Assembly (NCBI GenBank): GCA_905142475.1
Contig: LR990730.1
Location: 2,294,001 to 2,358,000, forward strand
DNA from: Xanthomonas hydrangeae
GTDB lineage: Bacteria > Pseudomonadota > Gammaproteobacteria > Xanthomonadales > Xanthomonadaceae
Reading direction: 5' to 3'
Length of the DNA: 64,000 bases
Shown here: positions 10,115 through 62,050 of the stretch, one piece after another
Position numbering within the stretch: position 1 is the stretch's first letter
How the letters are laid out: each line of letters begins with the position of its first letter
Program-made: the position numbers and the translations under genes
Notes under the pieces: generated by a model
What the model was told of the DNA's origin: nothing
Seen by the model: only the letters and a program-made list of their open reading frames with translations
Database searches by the model: none

Positions 10115-10960
10115 ATGACACTTCCGTCTTCCCGCTCCGTGCGCCCCGGCAGTGTGGTGCGCATGGTTCGTCGCCATCGCGGCGGCCGCAGCGCCACGGT
10201 GCAGGACATGGTGGCGGCCGAAATGCCGGTCGCTTTCAACTACAACGGCGTGCCGTTCGCGGTGATGATGGCCACGCCGGAGGACCTGGAGGATTTCGCG
10301 CTCGGGTTCTCGTTGAGCGAGGGCATCGTCGATCACCCGCAAGACTTGCGGGTGATTGCGGTGGAGACCTTTCTGGAAGGCGCCTCGTTGCAGATCGAGA
10401 TTCCACCCGAGCGCGCCGCCGCGTTGGATCAGCGGCGGCGCAATCTGGATGGACGCAGCGGTTGCGGGGTGTGCGGTAACGAATCGATCGAAGCGGTGCT
10501 GCGTGTGCCGCCGGTGCTGCACTCGTCGCTGCAGATCGATGTTGAGGCCTTGGCGCGTGCGCTGGACGACCTGCATGCGAAGCAGCCGATCGCCGCGCAG
10601 ACCGGCGCGGTGCATGCCGCCGGTTGGGCCGATGCGCAAGGTGTGGTGCGTTACGTGCGCGAAGACGTTGGCCGGCATAACGCGCTGGACAAGTTGATTG
10701 GTGCATTGGCGCGCGAGCGCGTCGATGCAGCGCAAGGGTTTGCGGTGGTGACCAGCCGCGCCAGTTACGAAATGGCCATGAAAGCCGCGCAGGCCCGGAT
10801 TCCGCTGCTTGCAGCGATTTCGGCACCGACCGCGCTGGCGATCAGCCTGGCCGACAGTGCGGGACTGACCCTGATCGGGTTTGCCCGCGATCACGATTGT
10901 GTCGTTTACAGCCATCCGCAGCGCCTGGATCTGGGCGTTGGCGTGGGAGAGCCCGCATGA
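10115..10960 (+). CDS. fdhD: Formate dehydrogenase accessory sulfurtransferase FdhD
   Basis: 281-residue cytosolic protein. FdhD passes sulfur from a cysteine desulfurase to the molybdenum cofactor of formate dehydrogenases. The active-site loop is seen as RSGCGVCG, with the CxxC cysteines at 117 and 120; the C-terminal half contains GRHNALDKLIG and SRASYEMAMKAAQ, both family signatures. It sits 6 bases after the transporter gene, and its TGA overlaps the ATG of the oxidoreductase (ATGA at 10957-10960), so the accessory factor and its likely client are translationally coupled. No alternative assignment is reasonable. Confidence 0.96.
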   Translation: MTLPSSRSVRPGSVVRMVRRHRGGRSATVQDMVAAEMPVAFNYNGVPFAVMMATPEDLEDFALGFSLSEGIVDHPQDLRVIAVETFLEGASLQIEIPPERAAALDQRRRNLDGRSGCGVCGNESIEAVLRVPPVLHSSLQIDVEALARALDDLHAKQPIAAQTGAVHAAGWADAQGVVRYVREDVGRHNALDKLIGALARERVDAAQGFAVVTSRASYEMAMKAAQARIPLLAAISAPTALAISLADSAGLTLIGFARDHDCVVYSHPQRLDLGVGVGEPA

Positions 10961-13305
10961 GCAAGAAGACCATCCAGCAGTACGACAATCCCGCCGGCGG
11001 CTGGGGCGCATTGCGCTCGGTGGCCAAGCACCTGATGGAACAGGACATCGCGGTGCAGGGCGCCAAGACGCTGCTGCACGCCAACCAGCCGGACGGCTTC
11101 GACTGCCCCGGTTGCGCCTGGCCGGACCGCGATCACACCTCCACTTTCGAATTCTGCGAAAACGGCGCCAAGGCCGTGGCCGCCGAATCCACCGCGCGTC
11201 GCGCCGGCAACGAGTTGTTTGCCTCGCACAGCGTCAGTCTGCTGTCGCAGTACAGCGATTACTGGCTGGAAGGGCAGGGCCGCCTGACCCACCCGATGCG
11301 TTACGACGCGGCCAGCGATCACTACGTGCCGGTGAGCTGGGACGATGCATTCGCGCAGATCGCCGGGCATCTCAATGGCCTGGCGACCCCGGACGAGGCG
11401 ATCTTCTACACCTCCGGGCGCACCAGCAACGAGGCGGCATTCCTGTATCAGTTGTTCGTGCGCGAGTTCGGCACCAACAACTTCCCGGACTGCTCCAACA
11501 TGTGCCACGAGCCCTCCGGCACCGCGCTGCGCTCGCAGATCGGCGTAGGCAAGGGCACGGTGTCGCTGCACGACTTCGAACTGGCCGATGCGATCTTCAT
11601 CTTCGGTCAGAACCCGGGCACCAATCACCCGCGCATGCTCGGCGAGTTGCGTCAGGCCTCCAAGCGCGGTGCTGCGATCGCCGCGTTCAATCCGCTGCGC
11701 GAGCGCGGGCTGGAAAAGTTCGCCGACCCGCAGGACAAGCTGGAGATGCTGCACAACGGCTCCACGCGCATCGCCTCGGATTATTTCCAGCTCAAGATCG
11801 GCGGCGATCTGGCCGCGGTGAAGGGCATCATCAAGCACGTGCTGGAGCGCGATGCGCAGGCCCAGCGCGATGGCGCGCCACGGCTGCTGGATCTGGAATT
11901 CATCGACGCGCACACCGCCAACTTCGACGCCTTCGCCGCCGATGTGCAGGCGGAAGCCTGGGACACCATCGTCGAAGAGTCCGGCCTGGACGAAGCGGCG
12001 CTGCGCAAGGCCGGCGAAATTTATCTCAACGCCGAGCGCGTGATCGCCTGCTGGGGCATGGGCATCACCCAGCACAAGCACTCGGTGGCCACCATCCACA
12101 TGATCACCAACCTGCTGTTGCTGCGCGGCCATCTGGGCCGGCCGGGCGCGGGCGTGTGTCCGGTGCGCGGGCACAGCAACGTGCAGGGCGACCGCACGAT
12201 GATGATCTACGAAAAGCCGCCGGCCGCATTCCTGGACAAGCTGCAATCGGTGTTCGGCTTTGCGCCGCCACGCGAAGACGGCTTCGACACCGTCGGTGCG
12301 ATCGAGGCGATGCTGGATGGGCGCGGCAAGGTGTTCTTCGCGATGGGCGGCAACTTCGCCGCCGCCACGCCGGATACCGATGCCACGCATCGCGCGCTGC
12401 GCAATTGCGAACTCACCGTGCATGTCACCACCAAGCTCAATCGCAGCCACCTGGTGCATGGCCGCGATGCGCTGATCCTGCCGTGCCTGGGGCGCACCGA
12501 AATCGACATCCAGGACGCCGGCTCGCAAGGCGTGACGGTGGAAGATTCGATGAGCATGGTGCACCTGTCGGCCGGCATCAATCCGCCTGCCTCTCCGGAC
12601 CTGCTGTCCGAGCCGGCGATCGTGGCGCGCCTGGCCGAGGCCACCTTGGGTGCGCGCAGTGCGATCCGCTGGCGTTGGTTGGTAGGCGACTACGACCGGG
12701 TGCGCGATCTGATCGCGCAGGTATTCCCGGACTTTGCCGACTTCAATCAGCGCGTGCGCACGCCGGGCGGATTCCGCCTGTCCAACACCGCGCGCGATCG
12801 GCAGTGGGTGACGCCCGAGCAGCGCGCAGTGTTCAAGCCGCACGCAGTGCCCACCGACAACCCGATCCACCGCGCACGTCGCAGCCACAGCGACCAGATG
12901 GTGTTTACGCTCGCCACCACGCGCTCGCACGATCAATACAACACCACCATCTACGGCCTGGACGATCGCTATCGCGGCGTATTCGGCGAGCGCCGCGTGC
13001 TCTTCATCAACGGCGCCGACATCGCGGCATTGAACATGAAGGCTGGCGATTGGGTGGACCTGGAAAGCCTGTGCGAAGACGGCGTACACCGCGAGGCGCG
13101 CCGCTTCCTGCTGGTGGACTACAACATCCCGCGCGGCTGTCTGGCGGCCTACTACCCGGAAACCAACGCGCTGGTGCCGCTATCCAGCTTCGCCGACGAA
13201 GCGCGTACGCCGACCTCCAAGTCGATTCCGGTGATCGTGCTGCCGCACCGTGCCGAGACTGCGGATGCCGCATCGCGCGATATCGGGGCCGTGCTTGTCC
13301 GCTGA
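10957..13305 (+). CDS. FdhF/YdeP-family molybdopterin oxidoreductase
   Basis: 782 residues. Catalytic-subunit homologue of formate dehydrogenase in the YdeP branch. Seen: N-terminal CPGC (Cys50, Cys53), the MoCo-domain stretch SGRTSNEAAFLYQLFVREFG, DCSNMCHEPSG, FIFGQNPGTNHPRM, and the branch signature VRGHSNVQGDRTM; a C-terminal dinucleotide-binding domain contains NINGAD-type and YNIPRGCLAAYYPETN motifs. No N-terminal four-cysteine 4Fe-4S set of the classical FdhF kind is evident. No TAT signal, so cytoplasmic. The start is fixed by a GGGAGAG ribosome site and the 4-base overlap with fdhD. No electron-transfer subunit gene is adjacent. Formate oxidation is an inference from FdhD and the carrier; YdeP itself is linked to acid resistance in E. 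coli. Confidence 0.88.
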   Translation: MSKKTIQQYDNPAGGWGALRSVAKHLMEQDIAVQGAKTLLHANQPDGFDCPGCAWPDRDHTSTFEFCENGAKAVAAESTARRAGNELFASHSVSLLSQYSDYWLEGQGRLTHPMRYDAASDHYVPVSWDDAFAQIAGHLNGLATPDEAIFYTSGRTSNEAAFLYQLFVREFGTNNFPDCSNMCHEPSGTALRSQIGVGKGTVSLHDFELADAIFIFGQNPGTNHPRMLGELRQASKRGAAIAAFNPLRERGLEKFADPQDKLEMLHNGSTRIASDYFQLKIGGDLAAVKGIIKHVLERDAQAQRDGAPRLLDLEFIDAHTANFDAFAADVQAEAWDTIVEESGLDEAALRKAGEIYLNAERVIACWGMGITQHKHSVATIHMITNLLLLRGHLGRPGAGVCPVRGHSNVQGDRTMMIYEKPPAAFLDKLQSVFGFAPPREDGFDTVGAIEAMLDGRGKVFFAMGGNFAAATPDTDATHRALRNCELTVHVTTKLNRSHLVHGRDALILPCLGRTEIDIQDAGSQGVTVEDSMSMVHLSAGINPPASPDLLSEPAIVARLAEATLGARSAIRWRWLVGDYDRVRDLIAQVFPDFADFNQRVRTPGGFRLSNTARDRQWVTPEQRAVFKPHAVPTDNPIHRARRSHSDQMVFTLATTRSHDQYNTTIYGLDDRYRGVFGERRVLFINGADIAALNMKAGDWVDLESLCEDGVHREARRFLLVDYNIPRGCLAAYYPETNALVPLSSFADEARTPTSKSIPVIVLPHRAETADAASRDIGAVLVR

Positions 13306-13573
13306 TCCACAGCTCACCGCGCACCTGCTCACCGCGCTGGCCGCCGCACCCGATGGCGTGTCGCTGGCGCGGTTGTGCAAGCAATTGGGTGTGCGCATGA
13401 GCATGCTGCTGCGCACATTGGCCTGGCTGGGCAGCGCCAGTCTTGATGGCCAACCTGGTCCGGGTTGGATCCAGGTGGAAGACCGCGGCGAGCGGCAATT
13501 CGCGCTGCTGACGCCTGCCGGGTTGGCAGCGCATGCGCAGCGCGAAACGGCGCAAGCGCCACCCGTTGACTAA
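13295..13573 (+). CDS. Small winged-helix-like protein, 3' gene of the fdhD operon
   Basis: About 92 residues. The reading frame is open from 13250, but the first plausible start that does not run deep into the upstream gene is a TTG at 13295, 11 bases inside the oxidoreductase gene and preceded by GGGG. The region LTALAAAPDGVSLARLCKQLGVRMSMLL followed by GPGWIQVEDRGERQFALLTP reads as a helix-turn-helix plus wing ending in an 'LTPAG' tail typical of MarR/winged-helix folds. Overlap with the oxidoreductase suggests coupled expression and a local regulatory or accessory role. Not recognised as a named family; start codon uncertain. Confidence 0.6.
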   Translation: MSADPQLTAHLLTALAAAPDGVSLARLCKQLGVRMSMLLRTLAWLGSASLDGQPGPGWIQVEDRGERQFALLTPAGLAAHAQRETAQAPPVD

Positions 13574-13620
13574 GAAAGTTGCTGGTTGTTTGCATGCAAC
13601 CATGCACACCGACTTTCTCA

Positions 13621-15131
13621 ACATGCACACCGACATTCTCAACGGGTCCTTGCCCGCTTACCGGCGCGGGACCTTACGCGGCATGGATGCCGCGTAAGAG
13701 CTTACAAGGACGTACTCGCAGCGTGTCCCGCGATGGTGGGCGGGCGAGGGCCCTGCAGCCAAGCCGAAGATCATCGGCTCTACAAGCGATCTATCCGCAT
13801 TGTCCAACTACTCAAAAACCAACCAATCTTTCGATTCGGTGCGTCGTCATCGATGCAGTCGAATGCTTAGGTCAAAAGCCTGGTTAGTCGAGCGCGCGGT
13901 GCCCTCACCGCTCGCGGGACACGCCGCAAGTACGTCCCTGTAGGCTCGGTGGCGGCATCCATGCCGCCACACGGTCCCGCAACCGGTGAGGACCCCGCAC
14001 CAGAAAGTTTGCCGCCTGTTTATTGAAAACTATGCACACCGACATTCTCGACTGGTCCTTGCCCGCCTACCGGCGCGGGACCTTACGCGGCATGGATGCC
14101 GCGTAAGAGCCTACACGGACGTACTTGCGGCGTGTCCCGCGACGGTAGGCGGGCAAGGGCCCTGCAGCCAGGCCAAAGATCGTCGGCTCTACAAGCGATC
14201 TATCCGCATTGTCCAACTACTCAAAACCAATCAATCTTTCGATTCGGTGCGTCGTCGTAGGTGCAGTCAAATGCTTAGGTCAAAACCCTGGTTAGTCGAG
14301 CGCGCGGTGCCCTCACCGCTCGCGGGACACGCCGCAAGTACGTCCCTGTAGGCTCGGTGGCGGCATCCATGCCGCCACACGGTCCCGCAATCGGTGAGGA
14401 CACCACACCAGAAAGTTTGCCGCCTGTTTATTGAAAACTATGCACACCGACATTCTCGACTGGTCCTTGCCCGCCTACCGGCGCGGGACCTTACGCGGCA
14501 TGGATGCCGCGTAAGAGCTTACAAGGACGTACTTGCAGCGTGTCCCGCGATGGTGGGCGGGCAAGGGCCCTGCAGTCAAGCCGAAGATCGTCGGCTCTAC
14601 AAGCGATCTATCCGCATTGTCCAACTACTCAAAGCCAACCAATCTTTCGATTCGGTGCGTCGTCATCGATGCAGTCAAATGCTTAGGTCAAAAGCCTGGT
14701 TAGTCGAGCGCGCGGTGCCCTCACCGCTCGCGGGACACGCCGCAAGTACGTCCCTGTAGGCTCGGTGGCGGCATCCATGCCGCCACACGGTCCCGCAATC
14801 GGCGAGGACACCGCACCAGAAAGTTTGCCGCCTGTTTATTGAAAACTATGCACACCGACATTCTCGACTGGTCCTTGCCCGCCTACCGGCGCGGGACCTT
14901 ACGCGGCATGGATGCCGCGTAAGCGCCTACACGGACGTACTTGCGGCGTGTCCCGCGACGGTAGGCGGGCAAGGACCCTGCAGCCAGGCCGAAGATCATC
15001 GGCTCTACAAGCGATCTATCCGCATTGTCCAAACGCTCCTGACTTTCCGTGTGTCCCAAGATGCTGGGCGGGCGAGGGGCCCTGCAGTCAAGCCGAAGAT
15101 CATCGGCTCTACAAGCGATCTATCCGCACTC
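13621..15131. repeat. Tandem array of 408-bp units built from paired inverted hairpins
   Basis: About 3.7 units with period 408-409 bp (R hairpins begin at 13648, 14057, 14465, 14873). Each unit has an R hairpin (13648-13749, 14057-14158, 14465-14566, 14873-14974) starting CCTTGCCCGC and closing GGCGGGCAAGG, and an L hairpin (13896-13998, 14304-14406, 14712-14814) starting GCGGTGCCCTCACCG. Both have an inner GGCAT-N2-ATGCC palindrome, and their cores are inverted copies of each other (ACACGCCGCAAGTACGTCC in L, its complement in R). A truncated right flank is repeated at 15051-15131. ORFs of about 121 codons through the units repeat exactly because the DNA does. No gene seen in the array. Confidence 0.92.
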
Positions 15132-15279
15132 CTTCACCGCTTCAACCGAATCTCACAGCCCTGCTGCCGCAAAGCGGACGGTCACGCCTGTAACTTTTTG
15201 CAGGCTGGTTGGTCTGCGCAAACCGCTGCTGCAATCTGCCAGAATCGGCCGTCTTGTCTTGTCTGGATGCCGATCAACG

Positions 15280-16587
15280 ATGACTGCTGCCGCGCCGCTT
15301 GCTTCGCCCATCAATTCGCCTGCGCGCGTGCTGTTCGCCAGTTTGATCGGCACCACCATCGAGTTCTTCGATTTCTATATTTACGCCACTGCCGCAGTGC
15401 TGGTGTTCCCCACCTTGTTTTTTCCTGCCGGCGATGGCAGCGCCGCGATGCTGCAGTCGTTGGTGACATTCGCCGTCGCATTCGTCGCGCGGCCGGTGGG
15501 CTCGGCCGTGTTCGGTCACTTCGGCGATCGGGTAGGGCGCAAGGCCACGCTGGTGGCGGCGCTGCTGACGATGGGCTTGTCCACGGTGGCGATCGGCTTG
15601 CTGCCCAGCTACGCACAGATCGGCGTGTTTGCGCCCGCGCTGCTGGCGTTGTGCCGTTTCGGACAGGGCCTGGGTCTGGGCGGCGAATGGGGTGGGGCGG
15701 TGTTGCTTGCCACCGAAAACGCGCCGCCGGGCAAACGCGTGTGGTACGGCATGTTTCCGCAGCTGGGCGCGCCGCTGGGCTTTCTATTGTCCACTGGCAC
15801 CTTCCTGGGCATGGGCGCAGTGCTCGACGATGCACAGTTCATGCAATGGGGCTGGCGTGTGCCCTTTCTGGCCAGCGCGCTGCTGGTGCTGACCGGGCTG
15901 TGGGTACGCCTGAGCATCACCGAGACGCCGGATTTCCAGAAGACCCTTGACCACAAAACACGCGTACGCCTGCCATTGGGCACGGTGATCACCCGGCACT
16001 GGCCGGCCTTGATCGTCGGCACGTTGGGTGCGTTCGCCACCTTCGTGCTGTTCTATCTGATGACGGTGTTCGCGCTGGGCTACGGCACCAAGACGCTGGG
16101 CTACGACAAGGAGCAGTTTCTGCTGCTGCAGATGGCCGGTATCGTCTTTTTCGCCATCGGCATTCCGCTTTCGGCCAAGTTTGGTGATCGCCATGGCGCA
16201 CCGCTGGCGATGATGCTGGCCAGCATCGCGATCATTGCGTTCGGGCTGGCATTCGCGCCGTTGTTTCAGGCCAATCACCCGTTGCAGGTGTTGATCTTCC
16301 TGGGATTGGGCTTCTTTTTCATGGGGTTGACCTACGGCCCCTGCGGCACGCTGCTGGCCGAGTTGTATCCCACCGAGGTGCGTTACACCGGCGCCTCGTT
16401 GTCGTTCAATCTGGCCAGCATTCTGGGTGCGGCGCCGGCGCCGTATGTGGCCACGCAACTGGCCGCACGTTATGGCGTGCAGGCGGTCGGGCAGTATCTG
16501 GGGGGCGCGGCGGTGCTGAGTCTGTTGGCGTTGATCGCCGCGCGTGCGATGCGGCGGCGCTCCAGCCAAGCGCATCCGCCGGTATAG
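15280..16587 (+). CDS. MHS-family MFS transporter (metabolite:H+ symporter)
   Basis: 435-residue inner-membrane carrier with about 12 TM helices. MHS-type signatures: GTTIEFFDFYIYATAA near the N-terminus, the MFS loop GHFGDRVGRKATL, and FGQGLGLGGEWGGAVLLATE, which is diagnostic of the ShiA/KgtP/ProP group. The ATG at 15280 aligns with the family start; the open frame extends upstream into the repeat array and is not coding there. The ribosome site is weak. Substrates in this group are organic acids, betaine or shikimate, and the sequence does not choose among them. It is single-gene, between the hairpin array and a convergent diguanylate cyclase. Confidence 0.9.
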   Translation: MTAAAPLASPINSPARVLFASLIGTTIEFFDFYIYATAAVLVFPTLFFPAGDGSAAMLQSLVTFAVAFVARPVGSAVFGHFGDRVGRKATLVAALLTMGLSTVAIGLLPSYAQIGVFAPALLALCRFGQGLGLGGEWGGAVLLATENAPPGKRVWYGMFPQLGAPLGFLLSTGTFLGMGAVLDDAQFMQWGWRVPFLASALLVLTGLWVRLSITETPDFQKTLDHKTRVRLPLGTVITRHWPALIVGTLGAFATFVLFYLMTVFALGYGTKTLGYDKEQFLLLQMAGIVFFAIGIPLSAKFGDRHGAPLAMMLASIAIIAFGLAFAPLFQANHPLQVLIFLGLGFFFMGLTYGPCGTLLAELYPTEVRYTGASLSFNLASILGAAPAPYVATQLAARYGVQAVGQYLGGAAVLSLLALIAARAMRRRSSQAHPPV

Positions 16588-17972: not shown

Positions 17973-18059
17973 CGGTTGGCCGTGCGGATCGAACCGTCAT
18001 ACCAGCTAACGGCTCTGCTCGCCAAAACTTGAGCGCTTCGTCTCAAAGTGGCGAAGACC

Positions 18060-18591
18060 AAGAGTGGCTAACAAAACCTAGCGAGCGAGCGCCTGTCAGT
18101 GATTGCAGTGATTTTATCGGCCGTCTTTTGATAGATGCCGTAGGAAGCCCAGGTCAGACACTCAGTGGGTCGAGGCGCGGTGCCCTCACCGCTCGCGGGA
18201 CACGCCGCAAGTACGTCCATGTAGGCTCGGTGGCGGCATCCATGCCGCCACACGGTCCCGCAATCGGTGAGGACACCGCACCAGAGAGTTTGTCGGTTGC
18301 TTTCTTAAAGCTTGTCCATCGCTCGGCTTACATTGAGAAGATGAATCAGGCGTGCCGTTATCTAAACAACCCACGTAAGGCATTGCTTGCACCATGCACA
18401 CCGACCATCTTGACTGGTCCTTGCCCGCCCACCGTCGCGGGACCTTACGCGGCATGGATGCCGCGTAAGAGCCTACACGGACGTACTTGCGGCGTGTCCT
18501 GCGATGGTGGGCGGGCAAGGGCCCTGCAGCCAGGCATCAGATCATCCGGCCCGCAGTAGACTGGAGTGAAGTAGTTTGGTCAGCCGCTCTT
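18060..18591. repeat. Long element bounded by AGAG(C/T)GGCTAACAAAAC-type inverted ends
   Basis: The left end is AAGAGTGGCTAACAAAAC at 18060-18077; the right end TAGTTTGGTCAGCCGCTCTT (18572-18591) is its imperfect inverse. The same pair of ends bounds a 143-bp element at 61877-62019. Here the interior contains the L/R hairpin pair (18177-18520), so two repeat families appear nested. The whole 17973-18600 interval contains no gene. Confidence 0.65.
18177..18520. repeat. Dispersed L/R hairpin pair, copy at 18 kb
   Basis: L hairpin 18177-18279 and R hairpin 18419-18520, same order and polarity as in the 13621-15131 array. The conserved stretches are the hairpins, the ACCAGA(G)AGTTTG after L and the CACCGACCATC...GACTGGT before R; the 140-base spacer otherwise differs from the array. 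In the R outer stem, an array U-A pair is C-G here, a compensatory change. Confidence 0.88.
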
Positions 18592-18600
18592 ACGCCCAGA

Positions 18601-36686: not shown

Positions 36687-36730
36687 TAGACGCTAGACGC
36701 TAGACGCTAGACGCTAGACGCTAGACGCTA
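36687..36730. repeat. Heptanucleotide tandem repeat (TAGACGC)x6
   Basis: Six perfect copies of TAGACGC plus a partial seventh, a simple-sequence VNTR candidate. It lies about 100 bases beyond the corA 3' end, outside any coding region, so copy-number change would not shift a reading frame. Confidence 0.9.
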
Positions 36731-49942: not shown

Positions 49943-50118
49943 TCGTGCTGTGAACTCCAGGCGGCCGCGTAATGCCGCAGCCGCCCAGGGTCAGCAGACT
50001 GGTCGCCCGGTGCATGCAGGCGTCACGCAGGAGCAGGGTGTACGCATGCTATTTGCCGATTTCGAGCATGGTCCGCGTCTTTCAGGCGGTCCCCCCCCAA
50101 GTCACGTTGGTCGAGGGC

Positions 50119-50460
50119 GCGGTGCCCTCACCGCTCGCGGGACACGCCGTGAACCCGTCCCTGGGGGCTCGGTGGCGGCATCCATGCCGCCACACGGTCC
50201 CGCAATCGGTGAGGACACCGCACCAGACAGTTGGTCGGTGCTCAGTTGAAAAGCTGTCTGTCGCGCGGTGCGCATCAGACGCGGAGCCGATGCTTCACGA
50301 TCGAACAAGGCGCACCAAGCACTGCTCTCAACTTTGCGTACCGACCATCTCGACTGGTCCTTGCCCGCCCACCGTCGCGGGACCTTACGCGGCATGGATG
50401 CCGCGTAAGAGCCTCCATGGACGGATTCACGGCGTGTCCCGCGATGGTGGGCGGGCAAGG
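50119..50460. repeat. Dispersed L/R hairpin pair, copy at 50 kb, in the petC-sspA gap
   Basis: L hairpin 50119-50221 and R hairpin 50360-50460, same polarity as the other copies; the spacer between them is unrelated to those at 14 kb and 18 kb except for ACCAGA(C)AGTT after L and ACCGACCATC...GACTGGT before R. The outer R stem again shows the C-G version of a base pair that is U-A in the array. The gap 49943-50689 otherwise holds no gene; the last 200 bases must carry the sspA promoter. Confidence 0.88.
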
Positions 50461-50689
50461 GCCCTGCATAGAATCCGCAGATAAGCCGCGTACCTACCTG
50501 CCGATGATGCGTCATCGCCGGCCGCGCCCGACATAGAACACGGCAATATGGCTTGTTGGTGTTTTTGAGGCCTTATCACCCTTGGCTTTTGCGTGACGTG
50601 ATTGCACACTCGAAGGACCGTGGTGACGGTCGGCGTTGGGCCGGCTGCGCCGATGCGGCCGGCGGATTCCGGTCGTCGGAGAGCCTTGA

Positions 50690-52763: not shown

Positions 52764-53032
52764 GGGCGCCAATGTGCCACGCCATGCGCCCGATCGACAA
52801 TCGTCGTGCCGGGCCGCAGCGTTGCGTTAGCCGCTGGCAAGACATCCTGCGTCAGCCGCAGTACCTGACGATCACGCAGGCAGCGTTTTCGCTATAGCGC
52901 GCTAAACCATTCACTGCCATCGCCGTGGCTAGCTTGCGTCGGCCACCAGACACCCCCATCCATTGAGTTCCCGCCGAGTTGAATCCGCACACCGCTCGCC
53001 CTAACGTGGCGCGACGGTTCGGGGCATCGCCT

Positions 53033-56000
53033 ATGCATCCTGTTCTGCAGCAGTTCCATCCTGTCGTGGCCGCATGGTTCGCGCAGACCTTCGCGGCGCC
53101 CACGCCGGCGCAGATTGCCGCGTGGCCGGCGATCCAGGCCGGGCGGCACACGCTGGTGGCTGCGCCGACCGGGTCGGGCAAGACGCTGACCGCGTTCTTT
53201 GCCGCCATCGATGCGCTGATCCGCGATGGTCTGGCCAACGGCGGCGCATTGCCGGACGAAACACGCGTGCTCTACGTGTCGCCGCTGAAGGCGCTATCCA
53301 ACGACATCCATCTCAATCTGGACGCCCCGCTGCAAGGTATCCGCACGGCCCTGCGCGCAGCCGATTTGCCGGATGTGGCAGTGCGCACAGCGGTACGTAC
53401 CGGCGACACACCGCAGCGTGAGCGGGCCAAACTGCGGCGCGTGCCGCCACATATTCTGGTGACCACGCCGGAGTCCTTGTATGTACTGCTGGGCTCGGCC
53501 TCCGGGCGCAACGCGCTGCGGCACGTGCGCACCGTCATCGTCGATGAAATCCATGCGGTGGCGGCGGACAAACGCGGTAGCCATCTGAGCCTGACGCTGG
53601 AGCGTCTGCAACGATTGGCCGAGCGCCCGATCACCCGCATCGGGCTGTCGGCCACGCAAAAGCCGATTGAAACTGTCGCGCAATTTCTGGTCGGCGTCGG
53701 CGACGCCGGCCAACTTCCACCGCAGTGCGAGATCGTGGATATCGGCTACACCCGCACGCGCGATCTCGCGCTGGCCTTGCCGCCGACGCCGCTGAGCGTG
53801 GTGATGTCCAACGACCAGTGGCTGCAGGTATACGCCGAGGTGGCCGCGCTTGCGCAGCAACATCGCACCACGCTGGTGTTCGTCAATACCCGGCGCATGG
53901 CCGAGCGGGCCGCGCGCCATCTGGGCGATCTGCTCGGCAAACAGCGCGTGGCGGCACATCACGGCAGCCTGTCGCGCGAGACGCGCCTGCTGGCCGAGCA
54001 GCGCCTAAAGGCTGGCGAATTGACCGTGCTGGTAGCCACCGCATCGCTGGAACTCGGGCTGGATATCGGCGATGTCGATCTGGTCTGCCAGCTCGGCTCG
54101 CCGCGTTCGATCGCCACGTTCCTGCAACGTGCCGGACGCGCCGGGCATGCGGTCGGCGGCACACCGAAGGCGCGGCTGTTTCCGCAGACCCGCGACGAGT
54201 TGGTCGAATGCGCCGCACTGCTGGACAGCGTGCGCCGCGGCGAGCTGGACGCGCTACGAATTCCGCTCGCGCCGATCGATGTGCTTGCACAACAACTCGT
54301 GGCCGAGGCCGCCTGCGAGGACTGGGATGAAGATGCGCTGTTCGCGCTGGTGCGCCGCGCGTGGCCATTCGCTCGGCTGAGCCGGGAGACGTTCGATCGC
54401 GTGGTCGGCATGTTGTGCGATGGCTTCAGTACCCGGCTCGGGCCGCGTGCGGGGTATCTGCATCGCGATGCGGTGCACCGCCGCCTGCATGCACGCCGTG
54501 GTGCGCGCATGACCGCGTTGACCTCCGGCGGCACCATCCCCGAGACCGGCGACTACAGCGTGGTACTGGAGCCGCAGGCGGAAAAGATCGGCACGGTGAA
54601 CGAGGATTTCGCGGTCGAAAGCCTGACCGGCGATGTGTTTCAGCTCGGCAATGCCAGCTACCGCATCCTGCGTGTGGATGCGGGCCGCGTGCGGGTGGAA
54701 GATGCCAAGGGCGCGCCGCCGAACATTCCGTTCTGGCTGGGCGAAGCGCCGGGCCGCAGCGATGAATTGTCGGCGGCGGTGTCGCGGTTGCGTGGCGAGA
54801 TCGCCACGCGGCTCGACAGCGCACGCCTCGACGGTATGCCCCTCGATGCCACGCTCCTCAACAGCACGCCGCTCAACAGCACGCCTCTCAACAGCGCACC
54901 CCTCAGCAGCGCATCGCATCAGTCCGCCTGCGATTGGCTCTGCAGCGAGTTGGGTCTGGCCGCAGAAGCCGCGCGCCAACTGGTGGACTATCTCGCGCAC
55001 GCCTGCGCGGCGCTGGGCACCATGCCGACCCAGCAGTGTCTGGTGATGGAGCGCTTCTTCGATGCCAGCGGCGGCACCCAGCTGGTGATCCATTCGCCGT
55101 ATGGCAGCCGTATCAATCGCGCGTGGGGGCTGGCGTTGCGCAAGCGGTTTTGTCGCACCTTCAATTTCGAATTGCAGGCGGCGGCAACCGAAGATGCGAT
55201 CGTGCTGTCGCTGTCCACCAGTCATAGTTTTGCATTGGAGGAGGTGGCCCGTTATCTGCACTCGTCATCGGCCGAGCATGTGCTGATCCAGGCGGTGCTG
55301 GATGCGCCGCTGTTCGGCGTGCGCTGGCGCTGGAATGCGACCAATGCGATGGCGTTGCCGCGCTTCACTGGCGGCAACAAGGTGGCGCCGCAGTTGCAAC
55401 GGATGAAGTCCGAAGATCTGCTGGCGAGCGTGTTCCCCGATCAGGTCGCCTGCGCGGAGAATCTGGTCGGCGAGCGCCAGGTGCCGGACCATCCGTTGGT
55501 GACGCAGACGCTGCAGGATTGCCTGCATCAGGCGATGGACAGCGAAGGCTGGTTGCAGGTGCTGCGTGGGCTGGAATCCGGTGCGATCACGGTGGTGGCG
55601 CGCGATCTGGCCGCGCCATCGCCGCTGGCGGCCGAAGCCTTGAACGCGCGTCCGTACGCGTTTCTGGACGACGCGCCACTGGAAGAGCGCCGCACCCAGG
55701 CGGTGCAAAACCGCCGCTACACGCCGCAGACCAGCGACGATCTGGGCCGGCTCGATCCCGATGCCATCGCCTCGGTGCGCGAGCAAGCCTGGCCGCAGCC
55801 ACGCGATGCCGAAGAAATGCACGAAGCGCTGGTCGGGCTTGGCGTATTGCCCGTGGACGAAGCCGCCGATGTGCAATGGCAGGCCTGGTTGGCTGCACTG
55901 GCTGCCGATGGTCGTGCCAGTTGTCTCGAATTGAACGGTGCGCCCGCGCTATGGATCAGCGCCGAACGCATCGACTGGTTCACACCGCTGTATCCAGATG

Positions 56001-57520
56001 CGTCGCCACAACCACCGTTGCAGGCGCCGGCCGATTGCCGTGTCGCCGAGTGGGAACACGACTGGGCCGTGCGCGAACTGCTGCGCGGGCGCCTGTCTGC
56101 GATCGGCCCGGCGCAGGTGCCGGCATTGGCGGGCGCACTGCATTTGCCGCAGGCCGAGATCGTGCTCGCGCTGGCGGCATTGCAGCGCGAGGGCTATGTC
56201 ATGGCCGGGCAGTTCAGTGCGCAGGCGCAGTCGGAGGAATGGTGCGAACGCCATCTGTTGGCGCGCATCCATCGCTACACCCTGGGGCGATTGCGCCGCG
56301 AGATCGAACCGGTGTCGCAACGCGATTACGCGCGCTTTCTGTTCGAGTGGCAGCACCTCGACAGCGTCAGTCGTGTGGCCGGGCCGGATGCATTGGCCGG
56401 TGTTGTCGGGCAGCTGGAAGGCTTCGAAGCGCCCGCGCTGCTGTGGGAGAGTGAGCTGCTACCTGCGCGCGTACGCGACTACCAACCGGCGTGGCTGGAC
56501 GAGTTGTGCACGGCCGGGCGCACCGTGTGGGCACGCTTGCGCCCCGGCGGTGGCCGCAGCGGTGCCGCGTTGCGCGCAACGCCGATCGTGTTATTGCCGC
56601 GTCGCGAAGCGCAGCGCTGGAGCAGCCTGGCACGCGGCGTCGATGACACACCCCTGGGCTCGCGCGCGCAGCGCGTGGCAGAGGTGTTGCAGCAGCAAGG
56701 CGCGTTGTTCTTCGATGAGATCGCCGATGCCGCCCGCTTGATGAGTACCGAGCTGGAAGACGCGTTGAGCGAGCTGGTGATGCGTGGCCGCGCGCATTGC
56801 GACAGTTACGCCGGGCTGCGTGCGCTGCTGGTACCGGCCTCGAAGCGGCCGAGCGCGCTGTCGCGCCAACGTCGCCGTGCCAGTGCGCTAGGCATTCGCG
56901 ATGCCGGTCGCTGGGCACCGGTGCGCACGCTGCCGGAATTGCCGTTGGCCGAAGCCGGCGAGCGGCATCAGGAGACCCTCGAACACGTTGCGCGCACGCT
57001 GCTGCGTCGTTATGGCGTGGTGTGTTGGCGGTTGCTCGAACGCGAGGCCGCATGGCTACCGCCGTGGCGCGAATTGCTGCGCATGTATCAACGGCTGGAA
57101 GCGCGCGGCGAGATCCGGGGTGGTCGCTTTATCGCGGGCCTGTCCGGCGAACAATTCGCGTTGCCGGACGCGATTGCCGCGTTGCGCCGGGTGCGTGCGC
57201 AGCCGCTGCAAGGGCAGTGGGTGTGCGTGAGTGCGAGCGACCCCGGTAATCTGCTCGGCAGTCTTCTGCCGGGCGAGCGCATCGCACGTGTGCCGGGCAA
57301 TCGCGTCGCTTATCTCGATGGCCTGCCGGTGGCGGTGTGGGCGGCAGATCGCTTCCAGCCGCTGCAGGAACTCACCGCTGAGCAAGCCGAACAGGCACTG
57401 CGCTTGCTGCAACGTGGCCCAGGTGCCGCCGAGCAGACGCCGATGGAACAGTGGCTGGCTCAGTCACCCGGCAGCACCGCGCGCGCGCCGGTCGTCCGTG
57501 GCAGCGGACGCGACAGATAG
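53033..57520 (+). CDS. lhr: Lhr-family ATP-dependent helicase, full length
   Basis: 1495 residues, the size of bacterial Lhr. Helicase core: Q-motif region [20 protein letters not shown], Walker [14 protein letters not shown], motif [14 protein letters not shown], motif III LSATQKP, motif IV/V with [10 protein letters not shown] and motif [16 protein letters not shown]; then a winged-helix and the long Lhr C-terminal domain. It unwinds DNA/RNA hybrids and forks and takes part in DNA repair. ATG at 53033; the TTG at 52979 gives a non-family extension. Residues 594-628 are a tandem pentapeptide repeat in a linker. The 3' end overlaps the convergent 3-methyladenine glycosylase gene by 61 bases. 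Confidence 0.95.
54812..54916 (+). repeat. Seven 15-bp tandem units inside lhr (LNSTP-type pentapeptides)
   Basis: Consecutive 15-base units encode [35 protein letters not shown]. Units 4 and 5 (54857-54886) are identical except for the last base; divergence increases outwards. In-frame, so copy-number change alters linker length by five residues without breaking the helicase. Confidence 0.88.
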
Positions 57521-61696: not shown

Positions 61697-61876
61697 GCAA
61701 AGGACCACCGGAACAGGGCGCCGTCAGGCGATGAAAGACAAGGTGCGAGCGCGGCGATGGCCGGTACGACCGAGCCATCGCCTGACTGTTGGAACCAGCG
61801 CGCCAGCCACCCTGGCGGCGAGCGCGTGCCTAGATCTTGCCACAGGAGCCACTGCGCGTACGCATCGCGCCATTTT

Positions 61877-62019
61877 AGAGCGGCTAACAAAACGGAGCGA
61901 GCGGTCGTTAGGTGGCTGCGGGCGGCGCGCAGGAACCGGAGTGTACGAGTGGTACATGCCGATTGCGAGCACCGACCGCGCGCGCCTGGCGGCCGCACAA
62001 TAGTTTTGCTAGCCGCTCT
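61877..62019. repeat. 143-bp element with AGAGCGGCTAACAAAAC inverted ends
   Basis: Left end AGAGCGGCTAACAAAAC (61877-61893), right end GTTTTGCTAGCCGCTCT (62003-62019), one mismatch. The interior contains GGAGCGAGCGGTCGTTAGGT and GTGTACGAGTGGTACAT. Same ends as the longer element at 18060-18591. Non-coding; within the 61697-62050 gap, which otherwise shows no gene. Confidence 0.75.
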
Positions 62020-62050
62020 TGGTCCCGGCTGACTGCGTGCGGACATCGCA

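Follow-up and report, generated by a model that had tools for sequence, protein, structure and literature searches.

Downstream of an operon comprising fdhD and a gene for a formate dehydrogenase-like molybdopterin oxidoreductase, and upstream of a gene for an MFS transporter, the chromosome of Xanthomonas hydrangeae carries a tandem array of large hairpins (Table 1). It lies within the 64,000-nucleotide stretch of DNA analysed here as a whole (the window), which holds two further inverted doublets of the same element. The array is composed of four R and three L hairpins alternating in orientation, and TRF assigns it a 95% match between units and a score of 2573. The original prediction, made from the letters of the sequence, had placed R hairpins every 408-409 bases at 13648, 14057, 14465 and 14873, separated by L hairpins. 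The R stems start at these positions, the direct-repeat families in the array are spaced by 409, 408 and 408 bp, and L stems are found near 13896, 14304 and 14712, as foreseen. The inverted core of about 65 bp proposed to be common to L and R is also recovered: they share inverted arms of 56 nt with 86-91% identity and, when the rest of the core is included, an inverted stretch of about 65-70 nt by eye. The core palindrome, allowing up to one mismatch, gives 11 matches in the window against 0.09 expected. Two short tandem repeats of another kind are present in the window: a perfect repeat of the heptamer TAGACGC at 36687-36730 (6.3 copies, TRF) and a 15-bp repeat at 54850-54910 (4.1 copies) that lies within the long ORF 52979-57520 and encodes a repeated LNSTP-like stretch.

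Table 1. Features of the array, its neighbouring genes and the other L-R doublets of the window (positions in the window).
Feature	Position	Strand	Evidence or remarks
Tandem array, 408-bp period, 3.5 copies	13623..15032	.	TRF and repeat families
R1 monomer	13644..13753	-	core read on - strand
L1 monomer	13893..14001	+	core read on + strand
R2 monomer	14054..14162	-	intact IS110-type target GTAAGAGC-CT-ACACGG, CT at 14111-14112
L2 monomer	14301..14409	+	
R3 monomer	14462..14570	-	R1-like; TT replaces CT at IS110 core
L3 monomer	14709..14817	+	
R4 monomer	14870..14978	-	R2-like
Truncated R copy closing the array	~15042..15128	-	direct-repeat families
Second L-R doublet of the window	18165..18530	.	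216-bp class; inside the ~18059-18600 insert
Third L-R doublet of the window	50105..50468	.	214-bp spacing
fdhD, upstream operon	10115..10960	+	PF02634
Molybdopterin oxidoreductase, formate dehydrogenase-like	10957..13305	+	PF00384/PF01568
MFS transporter, downstream of the array	15280..16587	+	PF07690

The copies within the array are related but distinct, with divergences of 2-10% among R and 2-3% among L. R1 is nearest to R3 (96.4% identity) and R2 to R4 (98.2%), which makes growth of the array by a two-unit block likely; the closeness of R2 and R3 (95.5%) leaves this short of proof. The upstream oxidoreductase gene is present in all 35 genomes of the genus, and the 30 loci listed for the same-site comparison (our own and 29 others) differ in their palindromes: R-L-R in two genomes (G021 and G023), R-L-R-L-R in another (G022), and six palindromes with a 293-bp period in G007. 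In Xanthomonas sp. Leaf148 the site has one L-R flanked on both sides by truncated R copies. In G004 the first R at the site bears the left end of an IS110 element. At 13 of the 30 loci there is no palindrome within the stretch covered, which in some cases ends early with the contig, and X. nasturtii WHRI 8853 gives no match to the array nor to the stretch of the window behind it up to 17000. The array locus is common to relatives and its number of units is variable. Tandem repeats are prone to assembly error, and the original prediction had named an array confined to this assembly as the sign of an artefact or of a trivial duplication. The divergence between copies and the different unit numbers found at the same site in other assemblies of the genus speak against an artefact, and together with the dispersal of the element across the genome they leave this origin barely credible. 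A megablast search for a plasmid copy with 13250-15300 as query gave no match.

The array represents local tandem multiplication of a REP-like doublet whose size and shape are unusual. Its period, its copy subtypes and its variation among species point to an expansion event that would most likely have proceeded by unequal recombination or slippage between direct repeats. Local growth also takes another route at two loci (L108, G000:C1:4920600-4922600, and L106, G000:C1:551500-553700), where the 3' part of R is reiterated behind a doublet with a period of about 103 or 77 bp. The second doublet of the window is part of an insert of about 540 bp that is present in four of ten relatives and absent from the other six. 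This insert has extra outward inverted ends, TAAGAG(T/C)GGCTAACAAAAC or close to it, around the L-R doublet, suggesting that the moving unit may be larger than the doublet itself.

One array unit used as BLAST query finds 222 matches in the assembly. A genome search for the R stem had been proposed with the original prediction, and the palindrome that R shares with L proves to be dispersed: GCGGCATSSATGCCGC occurs 279 times in the genome and its reversed control not once. The first 100 of these palindromes form 51 clusters, of which 17 are single, 24 are pairs and 10 are larger. Among the 48 neighbours of this set that lie less than 400 bp apart, 43 are inverted (34 head-to-head, L then R, and nine tail-to-tail) and five are in the same direction. 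The spacing of the 34 head-to-head pairs falls into two classes, at 130-136 bp (19 pairs) and 212-228 bp (12 pairs), with three pairs elsewhere. The inverted doublet is the unit, as in REPINs, besides the 17 single clusters. The gene context was tallied for 50 of the 51 clusters, all from the first third of the chromosome and leaving out the one at 1838140, with a home-made codon-usage gene caller. None of the 50 is overlapped by a called gene over more than 120 bp; 29 lie between convergent genes, 17 between tandem genes, none between divergent genes, and four were not resolved. When the eight clusters beside an IS110 or IS3-family transposase are removed the figures become 27, 12, zero and three, respectively. 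The background of gene pairs in the window is 34 tandem, four convergent and four divergent, and that at six other loci 46, nine and nine. The L/R element shuns promoters and favours gene ends. Outside the genus, 33 high-scoring copies are found in 17 tandem, 12 convergent and three divergent contexts, with one unresolved.

A covariance model of the element, R1, was used for searches of its taxonomic range. By this model all 35 genomes of the genus carry the element, with one to at least 110 matches each; a search in other Xanthomonas had been proposed with the original prediction. Of 149 genomes sampled from the family 37 are positive, six of them belonging to Xanthomonas, and they represent 15 of the 54 genera; of 299 genomes sampled from the order 73 are positive, in 23 of the 85 genera (eight genomes of the genus, 30 of other genera of the family and 35 of other families). 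Across the order the distribution is patchy. Doublets of a + followed by a - monomer are also seen for some of the copies outside Xanthomonas.

Extragenic palindromes in hundreds of copies, grouped in clusters of alternating orientation and targeted by IS110 and IS3-family elements, are the marks of REP sequences and BIMEs (PMC1525189), and the L/R element bears all of them. It differs from the REPs of enterobacteria and pseudomonads, palindromes of 20-40 bp (PMC3733652), in that its unit of about 108 nt is a three-way junction in place of one hairpin and its outer stem is free to vary in sequence. GTAG/CGTC-tagged REPs, of which X. campestris has the GTAG type (PMC3733652), likewise occur as dimers and clusters. 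Here the GTAG beside the tall arm is not conserved, the foot of the hairpin reading GTAGG, GGAGG or GGGGG in the alignment, and no cognate RAYT was found. In the REPINs described from Pseudomonas fluorescens (PMC3116915), too, an inverted doublet can form a single long hairpin, and there are tandem clusters with flanks. The L/R element is far longer, its palindromes being about 135 or 216 bp apart compared to 71 bp between the 16-mers of a REPIN (PMC3116915). The view that REPINs are not usually tandem was too strong, as one genome has 16 tandem REPIN clusters (PMC3116915).

Is the element then a true REPIN, a non-autonomous unit whose mobility depends on a RAYT, a Y1 transposase that acts on single-stranded DNA? 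Its inverted doublets, tandem clusters and strand-biased stems would fit REPINs as portrayed in PMC3116915, filled and empty sites are seen among relatives, and there are two Y1_Tnp genes in our genome (L009 and L010, G000:C1:3892364 and 3907838) and a Y1_Tnp match in 23 of the 31 element-bearing genomes outside the genus. Both RAYTs of X. hydrangeae are, however, flanked by GTAGGAGCGC-type REP pairs, which resemble the Xaxo-type and Xcam-like REPs shown in PMC2817692 and constitute a second repeat system in the genome; at one of these pairs model R1 gives a weak match (E 0.02). The 23 genomes outside the genus yield 47 RAYT matches, and the 30 of them that were searched with 1.5 kb on each side contain no significant element, with weak R1 matches (E 0.03-0.4) beside three of the 30. 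The other eight of the 31 genomes have no Y1_Tnp match, and one of these holds 75 copies of the element. Mobilisation by a RAYT with a matching REP, which the original prediction had proposed to look for, is therefore unsupported, and we regard a true REPIN as quite unlikely. What stands of a REPIN-like element amplified in place is the inverted doublet, the extragenic position, the hundreds of copies and the tandem expansion; the link to a RAYT does not. The L/R element works like a BIME or REPIN and fails membership of the REPINs because none of the RAYTs searched is flanked by it.

The monomer of about 108 nt folds into a T-shaped three-way junction. Its outer stem of 20-25 bp is followed by an inner stem, GCGGGAC/GTCCCGC, and two arms, one small and one tall; the tall arm reads GGCGGCAT-CC-ATGCCGCC. 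The predicted folding energy is -62.1 kcal/mol on the + strand and -73.5 kcal/mol on the - strand for L1 (109 nt; z-scores -5.4 and -6.3), and -83.3 and -74.1 kcal/mol for R3 (z-scores -10.1 and -9.5). A unit had been expected to fold either as two hairpins or as one larger structure, and L1-R2 is indeed predicted to form one long hairpin on the + strand, at -177.9 kcal/mol compared to -145.2 for L and R apart; the - strand reaches -192.7.

Covariation supports this fold. An alignment of 34 monomers of X. hydrangeae (18 L and 16 R, selected manually among the distinct full-length monomers, 37 L and 46 R) has 36 pairs, of which 18 show changes on both sides, and four of five measures of covariation exceed all shuffles, the number of further pair types being the one that does not (156 of 500). 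Since L and R form two groups, the both-side changes in this set represent few events. A cleaner test comes from a genome of another genus, G077, with 22 copies in which core identity is 97%, arm identity 62% and self-complementarity of the arms 96%. When the copy with an indel in its arm (L288) is left out, 24 of 46 pairs are changed on both sides in the remaining 21, with 131 cells against 33 in shuffled alignments, and pairing amounts to 97.2% against 35-46% when slid. It stays high to position 25 of the stem, with values of 0.77 at position 21 and 0.55 at position 23, and drops below 0.6 beyond it. In G097, another such genome, 17 monomers have a core identity of 82%, an arm identity of 68% and a self-complementarity of 98%, and pairing ends after position 24. 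The outer stem is thus fixed at 24-25 bp in these two genomes while its identity between copies is low; in X. hydrangeae the stems vary more, reaching the third mismatch after a median of 21 bp (range 5-26). The nearly fixed length of the stem disfavours two origins: fold-back copying of flanking DNA, and insertion of the core into a palindrome already present.

Mismatches in the stem also seem to depend on the strand. Mismatches of the A-C and G-T kind, read on the core strand, are expected in equal numbers if both strands count alike. In the outer and inner stems of X. hydrangeae their ratio is 33:5 in L and 47:6 in R, apart from positions in which C-A or A-C predominates. In the outer stem of 63 monomers from outside the genus, chosen for clear ungapped stems and not fully independent of each other, the ratio is 27:3 (p ~8e-6), with 12 further mismatches of neither kind. 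The arms lack this bias: folded on the core strand, those of X. hydrangeae give 24:41 in L and 6:11 in R, mostly at small-arm positions where two L subtypes differ, and all L pairs taken together give 57:46. Predicted energies favour the reverse strand in 105 of 109 monomers of X. hydrangeae (44 of 46 L, 61 of 63 R). For monomers from other genera the count is 40 of 63, with 11 of 22 and seven of 17 in two genomes. Six single copies of X. hydrangeae in tandem contexts are split 3:3, by eye, for the strand that folds. The simplest reading of the stem bias would be selection on the folded reverse strand, since the prevalent mismatches are G-U pairs there; a strand-biased mutation process is the alternative cause. 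The absence of this bias from the arms slightly lowers the odds of an RNA role.

Template switching at quasi-palindromes is a process that copies one arm onto the other, and it could keep stems paired in place of selection. In the 21 copies of G077, 22 of the 29 pairs of the long helix are changed on both sides and the core strand shows no one-sided wobble there, as arm-to-arm copying would produce. This process does not account for a stem that ends at 24-25 bp, short of the unique flanks, and it needs an extra cause for the strand bias, for example C-to-T mutation biased to one strand. We consider this explanation of paired stems, like the true REPIN, to be of low probability.

To our knowledge it is still open whether REP-like repeats act as RNA or as DNA. 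The L/R element could be a DNA element, a cruciform or a binding site for gyrase, IHF or Pol I that shapes the chromosome in the manner of classic REPs. Gyrase, IHF and Pol I bind REPs (PMC1525189), and such a role would be in line with the extragenic position on the 3' side of genes, the hundreds of copies, the strongly conserved core (97% in the 22 copies of G077) and the arm mismatches devoid of reverse-strand bias. In a cruciform the two strands play equal parts and no bias is expected, contrary to what the stems display inside and outside the genus, and we hold this role to be unlikely, if less so than the two preceding alternatives. The original prediction had also suggested a multi-copy structured RNA, a proposal to which covariation and one-strand stem mismatches lend support. 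In its strict form, a family of sRNA genes amplified as genes, it draws on the covariation and on folding z-scores down to -10; yet no promoter-like site of the sigma70 type scanned for is found in 13300-15400, and no Rfam family reaches gathering score in the array, which makes it very unlikely. Within the window, sX9 and a tRNA alone reach that score. Sub-threshold matches to MIR918 (at most 65 bits for a cut-off of 268) and to mir-B6 were judged to be artefacts of long hairpins and rejected as evidence for a known family. The interval 13300-15400 contains no terminator-like site with a G+C stem followed by a T run, so the array does not have the makings of intrinsic terminators.

We favour, with a confidence somewhat above even, that the array is the in-place expansion of a dispersed, non-coding BIME-like doublet probably acting as a 3' RNA hairpin. 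The element would act as part of a transcript: RNA reading through from either neighbouring gene would form a very stable hairpin at its 3' end, which could protect or end the transcript and could insulate neighbouring genes from each other, mainly convergent ones. We infer this 3'-end role from the position, the pairing and the strand bias of the stems.

The small arm of L and R has a second property: it is the target of IS110 and IS3-family elements. In X. hydrangeae, 10 of 10 matches to PF02371 lie inside an R, where the site is GTAAGAGC-CT-ACAYGG and the insertion is bordered by CT at either end; PF01548 and PF02371 were confirmed for one of these elements. A search of the genus gave 30 listed IS110 loci from 15 of the 35 genomes. 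Among the 27 from other genomes, 16 show the same junction in an L or R, as read from the printed junctions. These 16 belong to the 19 loci with at least 57% identity, the other three being one unclear case and two fragments of 43 amino acids; the eight more distant loci do not show this junction. An IS3-family element with an rve domain was found in the small arm of an L in eight of eight matches, the two orientations being represented five and three times. The preference of IS110 and IS3-family elements for REPs is already known (PMC1525189, whose main text does not mention Xanthomonas).

The left end of IS110 (207 nt) contains AGAGCCT and CGTGTAG, putative guides of 7 nt each that correspond to the two halves of the R target, are complementary to them and both reach the CT core. 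A guide pair that reaches the core follows the rule of bridge RNAs (PMC11208160), and the matching guides suggest that insertion of IS110 is probably RNA-guided. A search of the left end for a donor guide gave no match of 7 nt or more and one of 6 nt. IS621 similarly inserts at a fixed site of a repeated palindrome, with a CT core and a left-end guide pair (PMC11208160). It differs in that the target here is the small arm of L/R and in that the guide role here is deduced from sequence alone. The Rfam family sX15 (RF02234) covers the left end of IS110 in 20 of 20 loci scanned (among them L154 at 829-987, L163 at 803-961 and L181-L190); two of the 20, L328 and L329, are not in L or R. In the loci compared for strand, sX15 as modelled and the recombinase gene are on opposite strands. 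From this overlap with the non-coding left end, sX15 is probably the bridge RNA of IS110 or the antisense of it. The open-licence PMC matches listed contain no joint mention of sX15 and IS110. A palindromic element with AAGAGCGGCTARCAAAAC ends encloses another Rfam family, sX9 (RF02228), at 61876-62020 of the window and at L104 584-660. Ends of the AAGAGCGGCTARCAAAAC type, with up to three mismatches, are present in 28 of 60 L/R stretches examined, and sX9 may itself be a repeat module.

Bringing these observations together leads to a broader and more tentative proposal, which we consider possible but doubtful: an order-wide family of large, T-shaped extragenic elements, with a fixed core and a long stem freely rewritten in sequence, would be a 3'-end RNA system of gene pairs whose core serves as landing pad of an IS110 guided by sX15. 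The class of repeats is known in outline. No description of this large form was found in the searchable, open-licence PMC literature, and none of the texts searched there prints any of six core words of the L/R element.

Because its copies run to dozens per genome and differ in their stems, the L/R element allows a direct reading of selection: pairing is kept, sequence is not. The stem mismatches that favour one strand bear on the RNA-or-DNA question for REP-like repeats. A likely role emerges for the orphan sRNA sX15, and natural target sites have been mapped for a probably RNA-guided recombinase. The array could serve as a typing locus, as its site is fixed while the number of units varies.
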